Assembly (NCBI GenBank): GCA_903943975.1
Contig: CAJAQB010000022.1
Location: 1 to 35,847, forward strand
Direction of reading: 5' to 3'
From: Synechococcus lacustris
GTDB taxonomy: Bacteria; Cyanobacteriota; Cyanobacteriia; PCC-6307; Cyanobiaceae
Length of the DNA: 35,847 bases
Part shown: in pieces, positions 1-35,847 of the stretch
Layout of the letters: every line of letters starts with the position of its first letter
Position numbering within the stretch: position 1 is the first letter of the stretch
The notes under the pieces: model-generated
Databases searched by the model: none
Seen by the model: the letters and a program-made list of their open reading frames with translations, nothing else
Told to the model about the DNA's origin: nothing
Made by a program: the position numbers and the translations under genes

Positions 1-1538
<1,538 letters not shown>

Positions 1539-31640: not shown

Positions 31641-31889
31641 CTATGTTTCCAGCAGCAATGCAATTTGCTGCCTCAGCCATTGGAATTGCTGATAGGCCTG
31701 CCACACTTCTTCTAGGTCCCCATGGTCGTAGGCGTGGATCAGCAGATCGCGCATCCCCGCGATCCCTTGCCAAGGAATAGACGGATGACAATCACGGCAA
31801 TCCTGAATTAAGGCATCCTCGAGGTAGTCCGTGGACTCCAATGTTTGGAGATCAGTGATCAGAAAGCCCAGGGCGCGATCCAGCACCAT
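31641..31889 (-). CDS. HepT-like (DUF86, HEPN) toxin, shortened
   Basis: 82 residues from ATG 31889. The C-terminal half HPSIPWQGIAGMRDLLIHAY is the signature of HepT/DUF86 proteins, with the RNase motif RX4HXY complete (Arg-Asp-Leu-Leu-Ile-His-Ala-Tyr). The N-terminal part LDRALGFLITDLQTLESTDY followed by LEDALIQDCRDCHP resembles the first helices, but the usual stretch of about 16 residues between the L.QD and the HP.IPW parts (typically AVIRNLEIIGEAAKRL-like) is missing. Full-length members are about 110 residues. This looks like an in-frame internal deletion; activity is doubtful. The partner MntA nucleotidyltransferase is not present. It overlaps the end of the upstream PIN gene by 38 nt in another frame. 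Confidence 0.65.
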   Translation of the reverse strand: MVLDRALGFLITDLQTLESTDYLEDALIQDCRDCHPSIPWQGIAGMRDLLIHAYDHGDLEEVWQAYQQFQWLRQQIALLLET

Positions 31890-32394
31890 CAGGATGTCGG
31901 TCGTGAGCCTGATTCAGCACTGCGGCCACCAGGGCATCGCTGAGGTAGTACCCCTGCTCACGCAGTGCTTTGAGCAGCGGGGCACAAGCCGGAACTAAAG
32001 CGCGTTCTTTGGCGAGCAATAGGACCGCGGCGGTGCCAATGATCGAGAGCCCCTGGCGGCGTGCCTCAGCGCGGCCGCAGCGATCGTCGACCAAAAGCAG
32101 CACCTGCTGCCCGGCAGCCTGCTGTTTCAGCGCTAGGTCGATGGCACTGGCCTCACCCGCAGCCACGCCTGGGTTGAGCGGCCGATAGGGATCGTTGGCC
32201 TCAGTACCAGCTGGGGCGATGACCAGCCAGCCCTCGGTTAGGGCCAGTTGCAGGGCCTCACTGCCGGGATAGGGCTGGTGGCCAACGGACTGGGCAGCGC
32301 CACCGAGCTCCCCTGCGATCACATTCGTGATCCACACCGTTGGGAACAGGCTGCGCAGCAGAGCCAACTGATCAATGCGGGCTAGGCCAATCAA
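31852..32394 (-). CDS. DUF3368-type PIN domain toxin, N-terminally truncated
   Basis: 180 residues if translated from the TTG at 32394. The sequence LARIDQLALLRSLFPTVWIT, LNPGVAAGEASAIDLAL, VLLLVDDRCGRAEARRQGLS and the ending YYLSDALVAAVLNQAHD match DUF3368 PIN-domain RNases. The frame upstream of TTG reads DAGPLIGLA with a TGA only five codons upstream of the TTG (32410-32412). The expected protein start includes that first catalytic Asp (xxDAGPLIxLA), so from TTG the enzyme would lack it. A one-base loss between the lost start and the Asp codon would explain this. No UPF0175 antitoxin is found upstream. The last 15 residues after LNQAHD are not family-like. Treat as a probable pseudogene or a catalytically impaired copy. 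Confidence 0.6.
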   Translation of the reverse strand: MIGLARIDQLALLRSLFPTVWITNVIAGELGGAAQSVGHQPYPGSEALQLALTEGWLVIAPAGTEANDPYRPLNPGVAAGEASAIDLALKQQAAGQQVLLLVDDRCGRAEARRQGLSIIGTAAVLLLAKERALVPACAPLLKALREQGYYLSDALVAAVLNQAHDRHPDGAGSRPGLSDH

Positions 32395-32483: not shown

Positions 32484-33641
32484 CTATTGGCTGACCGTGG
32501 GTGAATATTGGGTAGGGGCACTACTCATTGTAAGGCTACATGCCGAGACACTCCAAGATCTTCTGATTCGTGATTTGTGGCCTTTCAAGGAAGGTTGATT
32601 GCGTGGCGTATTGCTGATGCGTGACTTGCCTGAGCTATCGGGATTCACATAAAGACTAATGAATTCTACGTAGTTGTCAAAAGTGTTTCTGTTGCCACTG
32701 TTGACATATGAACATGCTTTTGCACCGTTTGCCAAGACGAAAACTTCATCCTCGAATTCAAGATGATAATACCTGATTTCATGGGGAAAATCCTGTAGAT
32801 CGGTTTTAATGATGTTTAAGTCGTTCGTCAGGAATGCTGCGTTGACAATCTTGTCATCGACCCCAATGCCATGGTACTCGGACGTATATAAATCAACCGT
32901 AGGAATATTGGCATCAATGGACCCTGCGCCTATTTTAATGGGCAGTGCTTGAAAGTAAGTATCTAGTGGCACAGCTGATCTCCTGATGGTTCGCTTAGCG
33001 ACCCATTTGATGGGCATCGGACCCTTTGATGTGTAAACACGATTGCCGATGTCAAGCTCTTCTATCTTTCGCTCTCTGCCGTCGGCCATTCGGATAAATG
33101 TGCCAGAGCAGAAGCAGACTGCTGGTGATGATCCGTAAAGACTAAATACAAGTGGATTTGTTGTATCGTTTGATCCAACTCCGTTTAGGTTTTGGTACAT
33201 TGCAGGAACGCTCCATCCCGAGCCCAACGTTGTATAGTTACCAGCATTGATGCCTAGCTTGACCCTAGTAGAGTTGGATCCTCCTGTGTCCGAGGACAAT
33301 GTAAATCCTAGCCAGTATTGAGTGCCAGAAGACAGGCTTAATGTTGTTGTTGGGGTATAACTGCTGGTTGCTGATGCTGCGGGTGAAGATGGACCAGATA
33401 GTACGGAAATCAAGGAGCCTGGCGTATTTGTATTTACGCCAGCTCCATAGAGTCCAACCTGAAAGTTATTGGGTGCACTTTGACCTGCCAAGTAACTATT
33501 GGTAGTTATAGAAACCTGGTCTAAGTTGACGTCTTGCCCAGGAATGAATGCCGCGTATTGATATTGGTAATCGGTTGAACTGACTCGCCAAACACCACGT
33601 GAGTTAGTGAGGTCAGTATTGGCGATGTATAAGGTGCTCAC
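32484..33641 (-). CDS. Hint-domain protein with N-terminal extracellular-type domain
   Basis: 385 residues from a GTG start. Residues 1-170 are a Gly/Ser/Thr/Asn-rich beta domain (FQVGLYGAGVNTNTPGSLIS, SGTQYWLGFTLSSDTGGSNS) resembling 'choice-of-anchor' type domains of secreted proteins. Residues 176-340 are a Hint_2 self-processing module: CFCSGTFIRMADGRERKIEE with Cys176 as nucleophile, IGNRVYTSKGPMPIKWVAKR, the TxxH block TSEYHGIGVDDKIVNAAFL, then VFVLANGAKACSYVNSGNR. The late His of the standard (H)xVxLANG block is replaced by Asp-Glu. No Sec signal is visible; Hint_2 proteins are often type I secreted. Base composition is far lower in GC than the rest of the window, so recent acquisition is likely. 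Function unknown. Confidence 0.75.
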   Translation of the reverse strand: MSTLYIANTDLTNSRGVWRVSSTDYQYQYAAFIPGQDVNLDQVSITTNSYLAGQSAPNNFQVGLYGAGVNTNTPGSLISVLSGPSSPAASATSSYTPTTTLSLSSGTQYWLGFTLSSDTGGSNSTRVKLGINAGNYTTLGSGWSVPAMYQNLNGVGSNDTTNPLVFSLYGSSPAVCFCSGTFIRMADGRERKIEELDIGNRVYTSKGPMPIKWVAKRTIRRSAVPLDTYFQALPIKIGAGSIDANIPTVDLYTSEYHGIGVDDKIVNAAFLTNDLNIIKTDLQDFPHEIRYYHLEFEDEVFVLANGAKACSYVNSGNRNTFDNYVEFISLYVNPDSSGKSRISNTPRNQPSLKGHKSRIRRSWSVSACSLTMSSAPTQYSPTVSQ

Positions 33642-33664
33642 CTCTGCGCCACTGCGTAATTATT

Positions 33665-33798
33665 ATTAATTATCTATGGAAATTTAGGGCGATGACCATG
33701 GGTAGGGACTGTTTATATATTGTCTGATTTGCCACTAGGGCGATGATGGCATCGCTGGGATCGAGCTCACACTCGTCAACCAGCCGGCGCAATTGGTT
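33665..33798 (-). pseudogene. 3' remnant of the regulator gene, cut off by TGA
   Basis: The frame of the regulator at 33799-34251 continues past its TGA as NQLRRLVDECELDPSDAIIA and a further dozen residues before running into AT-rich sequence and a TAA near 33665. This charged helical stretch reads like genuine protein, so the TGA may be a nonsense mutation and the AT-rich boundary near 33725 the edge of an insertion carrying the Hint gene. Confidence 0.4.
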
Positions 33799-34251
33799 TC
33801 ACCATTTGCTGGAAATCTCAGTGGCCCTGCGCTGGCCAAGGGCCGGGGGCGGCGTGGTGCGGAAAGCCTCTGGCACCTCCCGCAGGCCGCAATAGCAGGC
33901 CCACCACTCCAGTGCACTCCAGATCGGGCAGTCGTTATCACCGAGCGGAACAGCGCCCTTGAGCTTCTGCTTGATCGCCTTATTCAACAGCTTGCCCCAT
34001 TCCTTTGCATCAATGCGGCGATTGAGTTCTCCTAGTTGCCAGAAGACTTTCTGCCGCAGTTCGCCCGCCTTGCCCTGCTCGATCACCGAGAGGTTGCCGT
34101 AGGAGATCATCTCAAAGCCGACCTCTTTTGCCCAGTTGCAAGCTGTGTACTTGGTCCAGCCGTTGCGCCTGCGCCAATTCAGCAACATCCGCCCAAAGGC
34201 AGGGCGGCTCTGATGCTGACGCTCAAGCAGCTCGGCGTAGGTGATGGCCAT
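33799..34251 (-). CDS. HTH-like DNA-binding protein, probably truncated
   Basis: 150 residues. The N-terminal half has the look of an XRE/phage-type helix-turn-helix protein: FGRMLLNWRRRNGWTKYTAC, GFEMISYGNLSVIEQGKAGE and FWQLGELNRRIDAKEWGKLL. The rest (PIWSALEWWACYCGLREVPE) is conserved-looking but not a domain I can name. The start ATG overlaps the stop of the upstream broken gene by one base (TAATG), so both were once one operon. The frame goes on beyond its TGA (see 33665-33798). A likely role is repressor of a mobile element or toxin-antitoxin module. Confidence 0.55.
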   Translation of the reverse strand: MAITYAELLERQHQSRPAFGRMLLNWRRRNGWTKYTACNWAKEVGFEMISYGNLSVIEQGKAGELRQKVFWQLGELNRRIDAKEWGKLLNKAIKQKLKGAVPLGDNDCPIWSALEWWACYCGLREVPEAFRTTPPPALGQRRATEISSKW

Positions 34252-34463
34252 TACTTAAGCAACTCAATTTCAGTGGCATCTGGGTAGCGGTTTTTTGCAA
34301 ATTTCCTGGCTTCTTTGCCATTGGTGGCGCGGATGGTTTCAAGCATCGGCATCGCCCACCGGAAAATTATTTTTAGCCGATAAAGCCGTGATGCCTTTGC
34401 GCTGGTGCGGCTGATGCCTTCCCCGAGATTGGGAACCAGGCCAGTCCAAGGTTCATGCCGCTC
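34251..34463 (-). pseudogene. C-terminal remnant of an unknown gene
   Basis: The frame is open for 70 codons up to an in-frame TAA (34464-34466) without any ATG, GTG or TTG until ATG 34352, which leaves only 33 residues. The reading (ERHEPWTGLVPNLGEGISRT, then KASRLYRLKIIFRWAMPMLE and KEARKFAKNRYPDATEIELL) is a plausible protein C-terminus, not random sequence. It overlaps the HTH-like gene by one base. Its first part is antisense to the antitoxin remnant at 34455. Family unknown. Confidence 0.45.
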
Positions 34464-34549
34464 TTACCGATTCCAGTCCCCCCATCCCCAATGAAGTTGT
34501 GGAAGAGCACTTTGCCAAACGTCGTTCAGACGCCCTTAAGCGCTCCTAA
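34455..34549 (+). pseudogene. Antitoxin remnant with one-base frameshift
   Basis: From the GCC at 34457 the frame reads AALTDSSPPIPNEVVEEHFA and KRRSDALKRS to a TAA (34547-34549), like the small antitoxins that precede ParE/RelE toxins. The only ATG (34455) is out of frame with it by one base: ATG-CC-GCT would be ATG-NCC-GCT before a one-base deletion. The intact product would be about 31 residues, short even for this class. Confidence 0.55.
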
Positions 34550-34852
34550 ACCTCAGTCTTTGCCAGGAACATCACCTGGTCACAGCTGGCACTCGATGAT
34601 CGCGAGCAAATTTTTAGCTGGATTGAATGGGACGAGCCATTGGCCGCCATTCGAGTTGATGAAACGCTGCAGAATCAGATAAATCGCCTTAGTGACTTTA
34701 CAGAACACGGGCGCCCAGGAAGAGTGCCCGGGACCCGAGAATTGATCATTTCAGGCACACCATGTATAGCCGTTTACCGTAGAGAAGAGACTCTGATCCG
34801 TATCCTCAGAATCCTCCACGGCATCCTTCGGTGGCCGGAAATATTTGATTGA
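34550..34852 (+). pseudogene. ParE/RelE-type toxin lacking a start codon
   Basis: The frame after the antitoxin stop encodes TSVFARNITWSQLALDDREQ, then IFSWIEWDEPLAAIRVDETL and FTEHGRPGRVPGTRELIISG to RILRILHGILRWPEIFD. These are the conserved blocks of RelE/ParE toxins (WSxxALxDL, AAxRxxxxI, GRPGRVxGTRELVIxxTPYxxxYR, ILRVLHGAQxWP). No ATG, GTG or TTG exists in frame before TTG 34640, which would give a 70-residue protein without the first strand and helix. The original start was probably near TTT/GCC at 34559. Most likely inactive. Confidence 0.7.
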
Positions 34853-34912
34853 AAAAATATTGCCAGCTTCAGCAGATTAATTGGTCAGATCAAATTACCT
34901 TTACGCACGAAA

Positions 34913-35349
34913 TCACGCCGCCCTAGCTGCTGCCCTCTCCCTTGCCCGTCGCGCTAGGGCCGCATCAACAGCAGCATCCACAGTTGCTTCATCGGTCCAG
35001 CGCCCGTAGTGGGACGAATGGGTCTGGAGGCTATGGCCAAGCAATGCAGCCGCCGCCCGGGGCATGATCCCCAGTTGATGGGGTCGTGTCCTCCTTGGGC
35101 ACCGGCGCGAACCACCGCAAAATCCAGAAACTGCCTGGTGTACTGCAGCCGCAGCTTTCGTCCTTGGGAGCCAGGCTCCCCGCCGTAACGGCTCACAAGC
35201 CCTTGCCCCCACTGGCTTTTGCTAACGGCCGACGTGCTTGAGGCTTGGCATCTGCATCGTTTGGTCGGGCGCTCGTGCTGCTCTTCCGCTGCGCCGGCTC
35301 CTGGGCGACGCGGCTTGACAGCGGCGACCAAGCCCCTAAGGTATTCCAT
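34913..35349 (-). pseudogene. Tyrosine integrase remnant (frameshifted, core deleted)
   Basis: The C-terminal end, read to TGA 34913, is AAALLGHSLQTHSSHYGRWT and DEATVDAAVDAALARRARE, the GHS...H...Y-GRW end of phage-type tyrosine recombinases with the nucleophile Tyr. In another frame further 5' (to about 35349) lies GSQGRKLRLQYTRQFLDFAV, which resembles the DNA-binding N-terminal part. The two meet near 35060-35100 in different frames and the middle domain with the catalytic Arg/Lys/His-x-x-Arg is absent. So this is a decayed integrase with a large deletion. Confidence 0.6.
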
Positions 35350-35360
35350 GGAGGGAATAC
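35341..35360. promoter_or_regulatory. 7-6-7 inverted repeat, probable operator of the HigBA pair
   Basis: GTATTCC (35341-35347) and GGAATAC (35354-35360) are perfect inverted repeats around ATGGAG. GGAGG in the centre (35350-35354) is also a good ribosome site 9 nt before the toxin ATG. This fits autorepression by the antitoxin. Confidence 0.6.
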
Positions 35361-35363
35361 TGG

Positions 35364-35723
35364 ATGTGGGATGTCGGTCAGACCGCTGTCTTCGAAGACT
35401 GGTGGGGCGAGCTCAGCGAGCAGGAGCAGGACGATGGGACGGCCATCGTCGAGCTGCTCCAGGAAATGGGGCCCCAGCTGCCCTTCCCCCACTCCTCAGG
35501 AGTGGAGAGTTCCAGACACAGCCACATGCGCGAGTTGCGCATCCAGTCCCATGGCGACCCCTTGCGCGTTTTTTATGCCTTTGATCCCAGCCGCAGCGCC
35601 ATCCTGCTGATTGGCGGCAATAAGACCGGCAAGGACAAGCGGTTCTACAAAACGATGGTCCCCAAGGCGGACGCGCTCTACGACGAACACCTCAAAAACC
35701 TGCAAGCCCAACCCAAGCCATGA
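35364..35723 (+). CDS. HigB/RelE-type toxin (phage Gp49-like)
   Basis: 119 residues from ATG 35364 with a GGAGG site 9 nt upstream. HigB-type toxins are ribosome-dependent mRNA interferases. Blocks seen: VFEDWWGELSEQEQDDGTAI, VELLQEMGPQLPFPHSSGV, HMRELRIQSHGDPLRVFYAF, DPSRSAILLIGGNKTGKDKR and FYKTMVPKADALYDEHL, which are the full set for the phage-derived Gp49-like HigB group. The order toxin then antitoxin, with a 4-nt ATGA overlap to the next gene, is typical of higBA. Nothing is broken here, unlike the neighbouring modules. Confidence 0.88.
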   Translation: MWDVGQTAVFEDWWGELSEQEQDDGTAIVELLQEMGPQLPFPHSSGVESSRHSHMRELRIQSHGDPLRVFYAFDPSRSAILLIGGNKTGKDKRFYKTMVPKADALYDEHLKNLQAQPKP

Positions 35724-35847
35724 CGCGCTCTTTCTCTGAACTCACCAAAGACCTCAGCCCTGAGCGGCGTGAGCGCATTGAGCAGCGCAAGGAGCAGCTG
35801 CGGCAGGAAATGACCCTGGCGGAACTGCGCAGGGCCTTTTCACTCAC
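35720..35847 (+). CDS. HigA-type XRE antitoxin, 5' part (runs off the window)
   Basis: The first 42 codons from ATG 35720 are visible: MTRSFSELTKDLSPERRERI, then EQRKEQLRQEMTLAELRRAF. This is the usual lead helix of HigA-type antitoxins, with the start of the helix-turn-helix (TLAELRRAFSL) at the window edge. The antitoxin neutralises the upstream toxin and represses the operon, probably at 35341-35360. The C-terminus is outside the window. Confidence 0.85.
   Translation, partial: MTRSFSELTKDLSPERRERIEQRKEQLRQEMTLAELRRAFSL

Follow-up and report, generated by a model that had tools for sequence, protein, structure and literature searches.

The window analysed here, a 35,847-nucleotide stretch of the Synechococcus lacustris contig CAJAQB010000022.1, carries near one end the remains of an antitoxin frame followed directly by a toxin frame, both on the plus strand and lying between gene fragments on the minus strand. 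The features of this segment are as follows.

33730-34251, minus strand: truncated neighbour gene, 150 codons compared with stop-to-stop frames of 241-276 codons elsewhere.
34254-34463, minus strand: small ORF with no ATG, GTG or TTG giving at least 40 residues; residues 5-68 of 70 match a homologue.
34440-34451, no strand: putative junction, placed from the limits of homology, at which the antitoxin remnant (plus) meets the small ORF (minus), both without their 5' ends.
34442-34549, plus strand: antitoxin C-terminal remnant of RelB+PaaA2 type, covering about columns 64-96 of 102; RelB domain missing, stop codon at 34547-34549.
34455-34457, plus strand: out-of-register ATG spanning two codons within the antitoxin C-terminal segment.
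34550-34852, plus strand: ParE/RelE-family toxin body, open to its stop, with no ATG, GTG or TTG before residue 31; alignable from about 34568-34571.
34565-34567, plus strand: position of the relatives' toxin start, four codons before a conserved Trp; an arginine codon in the window.
34925-35086, minus strand: integrase-like remnant; its roughly 54 residues share 60% identity with residues 352-406 of a frame of 408 codons.

The toxin frame holds 100 open codons and a nearly full-length body. By sequence it belongs to the ParE/RelE toxin family, whose products inhibit growth with gyrase or mRNA as target, matching both PF05016 (ParE_toxin; 53.9 bits, cut-off 23, profile positions 1-85 of 89) and TIGR02385 (RelE_StbE; 30.3 bits, cut-off 27.9, positions 2-84 of 88) above their curated cut-offs, and an HMM built from relatives only scores it at 124.2 bits, against a maximum of 13.4 among 500 dinucleotide shuffles. 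Between the antitoxin stop and the conserved Trp there is no in-frame ATG, GTG or TTG; the earliest is a TTG at 34640, residue 31, so that the frame does not read as a translatable gene with a usual start codon. The earlier note had described a toxin frame with all family blocks and no start before about residue 30, a description borne out by these matches. When 81 distinct toxins of relatives were compared, the window toxin was found to keep 34 of 38 nearly invariant positions (0.895), just below the lowest relative (0.897, L021; median 1.0), and by this measure it appears to be a family member that is divergent or has decayed slightly. The same 34 of 38 would also fit a gene that is still expressed in some unusual way.

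We compared the locus with 94 relatives, of which 80 are the best 80 of 270 confirmed loci from a toxin search of one-per-species genomes, a choice by which broken toxins are under-counted. The remainder are eight loci fetched from 16 antitoxin matches and six from 40 toxin matches listed among 2,101 plasmid records. Nine loci for the antitoxin and ten for the toxin, all drawn from this same set, went into the profiles that served as rulers. Intactness was classed in all 94 by profile coverage and an in-frame start codon, and starts and overlaps could be counted in 83; the 11 left out are L024 and L075 (one gene unmatched), L025 and L027 (low score) and seven without the ruler motif. Toxin identity is 51-60% to the best 80 of the 270 loci, which belong mainly to rhizobia and their relatives, plus a few others (for example two Acidobacteriaceae), and 52-57% over most of the toxin in the 40 plasmid records listed of 2,101. 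The 16 plasmid records that match the antitoxin remnant are from Agrobacterium (8), Variovorax (3), Paraburkholderia (3), Neorhizobium and Phyllobacterium.

The closest known systems are the RelB/DinJ + RelE/ParE operons of rhizobial and Burkholderiales plasmids (for example L015-L023), in which antitoxin and then toxin lie on one strand, as they do in the window. The window toxin body is 49-54% identical to ten of these loci and the antitoxin remnant 34-50% identical to nine. The antitoxins of the relatives are about 102 residues long and, in the four tested against Pfam, consist of an N-terminal RelB domain (PF04221, from residue 4 or 5 to 50-54) and a PaaA2-like segment (PF21217, from 55-58 to 81 or 82). 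Compared with these operons, the window lacks the RelB half, the toxin start and the usual four-base overlap, and has both genes in one register.

The antitoxin remnant is carried by the frame 34415-34549 (plus strand), directly upstream of the toxin frame and in the same register. Against the 102-column profile of nine relatives, its match is limited to columns 64-96 and scores 28.9 bits with the relatives-only HMM. It is recognisable as the C-terminal segment of a long-type RelB/DinJ antitoxin, the profile of the C-terminal half giving 39.3 bits, a score reached by none of 500 shuffles (best 8.8). The N-terminal half behaves otherwise: relatives-only columns 1-62 reach at best -0.1 bits in the six frames of 33900-34460, equalled or bettered by 418 of 500 shuffles, and 3.4 bits over the whole window, equalled or bettered by 19 of 20. 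A RelB half persisting upstream in another frame was rejected on these six-frame scores, no better than those of shuffles. Neither PF04221 nor TIGR02384 (RelB/DinJ) has a match in the window at E 1, and the N-terminal RelB (ribbon-helix-helix) domain is thus missing. That the missing half survives at another place in the assembled genome was also rejected, a search with antitoxin profile A2 at E 10 returning the remnant as its sole match; A2 includes the window's own row and so scores the remnant with a bias, the relatives-only 28.9 bits being the unbiased figure. Within the remnant, the only in-frame start-like codon is a late GTG at 34499, 16 codons before the stop. Judged from profile coverage, the antitoxin is cut, having lost the RelB domain, some 60 residues at its N-terminus, and not frameshifted.

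This differs from what had been claimed earlier, namely that the antitoxin is intact except that its only ATG lies one base out of register. The ATG at 34455 is indeed out of register, but the frame covers columns 64-96 only, and further ATGs, both off the antitoxin frame, lie at 34414 and 34491. The family match begins at residue 11 of the frame, whereas the ATG at 34455 overlaps residues 14-15; because it sits inside the conserved segment, it is, as the alignment reads, a chance ATG and not a displaced start. A short PaaA2-like profile matches from residue 10, so this ATG would be internal for a short ancestor too. That a whole antitoxin once began at 34455 and was thrown off register by a one-base shift is therefore most improbable: the ATG really is one base off the frame, but the match precedes it, and the relatives carry some 65 further upstream residues, including the RelB domain, none of which is found upstream here. 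Profile coverage and these extra residues contradict a one-base frameshift at the antitoxin start. The module, placed at 34455-34852 in the earlier note, is of the ParE/RelE type and apparently dead, as the note held, with its remnant beginning upstream of the start given, at about 34442. The comparison with homologues that it proposed does place the lost toxin start, at 34565-34567, but finds no missing base, the N-terminal half of the antitoxin being gone.

We also considered whether the ancestor was a short PaaA2-like antitoxin without a RelB domain, of which only the first 10-22 residues were lost or have diverged. Short PaaA2-type antitoxins of this kind exist; PaaA2 itself, the stability determinant of PaaA2-ParE2, has no RelB domain, which the relatives of the window operon add. 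The remnant corresponds to the PaaA2-like part, matching PF21217 at positions 11-30 of 33 and NF050103 at positions 23-44 of 45. The PF21217 score (18.9 bits) lies below the cut-off of 27, so that the remnant is not assigned to PaaA2, and a PF21217 search of the genome returned the remnant and two weak matches (12.2 and 9.9 bits). Against a short ancestor, the long-type C-terminal half scores about twice as high as PF21217 or NF050103 (17.0 bits), profiles that differ in breadth; an intact long antitoxin stands ahead of the toxin place in 89 of the 94 relatives; and, of the 16 best antitoxin matches, 12 carry a RelB/DinJ annotation and four carry none. A short ancestor is accordingly unlikely, if somewhat less so than the other alternatives weighed here, and we retain the cut long antitoxin.

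Between antitoxin and toxin the relatives are strongly uniform. In 80 of the 83 countable relatives the toxin start (GTG, TTG or ATG) is placed exactly four codons ahead of the conserved Trp, and in 77 the two genes overlap by four bases at the antitoxin stop and toxin start. The distance from the antitoxin His to the toxin Trp is 69 bases in the window; among the 83 relatives it is 65 in 72, 62 in eight, 64 in two and 63 in one. Antitoxin and toxin share one register in the window, whilst 82 of 84 intact pairs use the usual other register and L094 the third. The shared register need not reflect damage, since L088 is a natural in-register, non-overlapping pair, and we have softened its standing as proof of damage on account of this counterexample.

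The retention of most of the toxin raises the reading that some of it is still synthesised, at a low level, from a non-NTG codon, for which ATC at 34571 and GTC at 34556 are both in frame; from the ATC, the body would be just two residues shorter than those of the relatives, and the 34 nearly invariant residues are in keeping with such use. If translation of this sort did occur at a very low rate, which we consider highly doubtful, the product would be a tamed, antitoxin-free ParE/RelE protein, retained because weak initiation is harmless or useful. Several results speak against low-level synthesis, to which we give very little credence. An NTG start is found in 81 of the 83 countable relatives, the antitoxin is cut with no other antitoxin of the same kind in the genome, and the neighbouring genes are truncated. 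Nor is there a promoter-like pattern near the module, as far as patterns can tell: a sigma-70-like pattern scan, a weak test, found two in 33600-35847, both at 33669-33721, compared with 0.8 per shuffle. Start codons are discussed in a part of PMC4963859, and no NTG codon of that kind is present in the window toxin.

At its 5' side, the antitoxin remnant meets the small ORF of the opposite strand head to head, both without their 5' ends, and we infer from this arrangement an illegitimate join near 34440-34451, with a breakpoint placed from where the homologies stop. No direct repeats were found across the junction. Neither the uncut state nor the same join was found among relatives, 98 other genomes giving only two matches, of 23 and 30 bases. 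Residues 5-68 of the small ORF align at 47% identity with a frame of 84 codons from another genome in the same family, and matches at E 0.01 occur in 6 of 399 other family genomes. Ahead of the matched part, the 84-codon frame carries a Met and some residues without a recognisable counterpart in the window ORF, and its neighbours resemble prophage genes by eye. Beyond the small ORF, the gene at 33730-34251 is shorter than the 241-276 codon frames of its 23 best matches outside its own genome; relatives of it occur in 123 of 399 other family genomes, and across 19 loci compared the DNA similarity ends at 34250, the gene start, in 18, its other end reaching as far as 33730. Downstream of the toxin, the remnant at 34925-35086 resembles a 408-codon frame (L170) from another family genome, which we call integrase-like from the look of its sequence, no Pfam family matching this frame at E 0.01.

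Several further searches gave little. A scan of genome contigs with the single toxin sequence gave 46 candidate stretches, none of them confirmed. Nothing useful came from a plasmid search with the two minus-strand neighbours, from blastn of 34436-34849 against phages, from blastn of 34252-34600 against plasmids, or from a search of viral contigs with the toxin alignment and the neighbour gene; PHROGs likewise gave nothing useful for the neighbours other than toxins. An assembly or sequencing error in an intact operon is a further, very unlikely account of the locus: one error could alter a start codon, but about 60 missing codons and a join to an unrelated opposite-strand ORF would go unexplained unless the contig were misassembled at that point.

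At E 1e-5, none of 399 other genomes of the host family matches the toxin. In the phylum, toxin profile A1, which contains the window row, matches 55 of 386 genomes at E 1e-8, the window's own genome included. At 29 other same-phylum loci, toxin identity is 31-44% over most of the toxin, three shorter pieces reaching 50-52%; all 29 have an upstream ORF of another kind, and near the toxin the antitoxin profiles score at most 1.9 bits (N-terminal half) and 5.0 bits (C-terminal half). With no match in the family and less similar loci in the phylum, horizontal transfer from a proteobacterial-type source is the probable origin of the operon. Other ParE-family genes are present in the same genome, where PF05016 has ten matches at E 1 (loci L005-L014), six over the cut-off including the window toxin.

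Decay is also seen in other copies of this operon. Both genes are intact in 84 of the 94 relatives. In five, the antitoxin is intact and the toxin startless (L037, L060) or broken (L026, L090, L099); in two (L075, L033), the toxin is intact without an intact antitoxin; and in L024, L025 and L027 the antitoxin is not intact and the toxin broken or not found. The frameshift in L033, a finished plasmid, may be a sequencing error. Decayed same-family copies (L024, L025, L026, L027, L037, L060, L075, L090, L099) thus include startless or broken toxins and internally deleted or replaced antitoxins. In L075 (Mesorhizobium sp. NFR06; 3-326 and 349-636), a DDE transposase fragment (PF13358, 63.4 bits) replaces the antitoxin, leaving an intact toxin frame. 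At about 1498 in L060 (Rhizobium sp. PP-CC-3A-592), the stop/start overlap is altered, giving an antitoxin longer by two residues and a toxin without an NTG start. In L090 (Rhizobium sp. 32-5/1) and L099 (a Bradyrhizobium MAG), which belong to different genera, the toxin is interrupted by a stop codon at the same place, residue 26 (1573-1575), and the antitoxins are intact. Among the 95 copies compared, the 94 relatives and the window itself, the window is the only one to combine a cut antitoxin with a startless, otherwise nearly complete toxin.

It had been argued earlier that loss of the antitoxin alone would be lethal, so that the toxin start must have gone first or at the same time, and that this order can be read from the sequence. 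The argument presumes that the toxin was being expressed when the antitoxin was lost. Type II operons with the antitoxin first have their promoter upstream of it, and a cut could take away this promoter along with the N-terminal part of the antitoxin. Both genes would then fall silent at once, and an earlier death of the toxin is not required. As both patterns of loss occur among the 94 relatives, the order of events is not readable from the window sequence. That the toxin must die first is more generally an unsafe inference, given that promoter and antitoxin can both be lost to one 5' cut and that L075 keeps its toxin frame.

Taken together, neither the complete antitoxin nor the translatable toxin that in turn make up a functional type II toxin-antitoxin (TA) operon is present at this locus, which is very probably the dead remainder, truncated on its 5' side, of a type II TA operon of probable horizontal origin and has ceased to function as such a module. 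An illegitimate join near 34440-34451, a deletion or some other event, would have removed the operon promoter and the N-terminal half of the antitoxin in one step, silencing both genes; the toxin start would have been lost through small changes where antitoxin and toxin adjoin, earlier or later than this join. This is unremarkable decay of genes within a region of broken mobile DNA, with truncated genes on both sides; decayed TA modules are common in mobile islands.

Further TA-like genes lie nearby and give this end of the window the look of an island rich in TA genes. On the minus strand, a HepT-like fragment (31644-31889; PF01934, profile positions 61-108 of 120) lies beside a DUF3368 protein (31855-32394; PF11848). 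Between the TA-like genes, 32484-33641 (minus strand) encodes a Hint_2-domain protein (PF13403, 73.6 bits). Downstream, 35364-35723 (plus strand) encodes an apparently intact HigB-like toxin (Gp49, PF05973, 66.3 bits), overlapped by a plus-strand frame, possibly its antitoxin, that starts at 35720 and runs off the window. At the opposite end of the window, positions 567-753 (minus strand) encode the IsrR antisense RNA (RF01419, 166.3 bits), a regulator of isiA expression.
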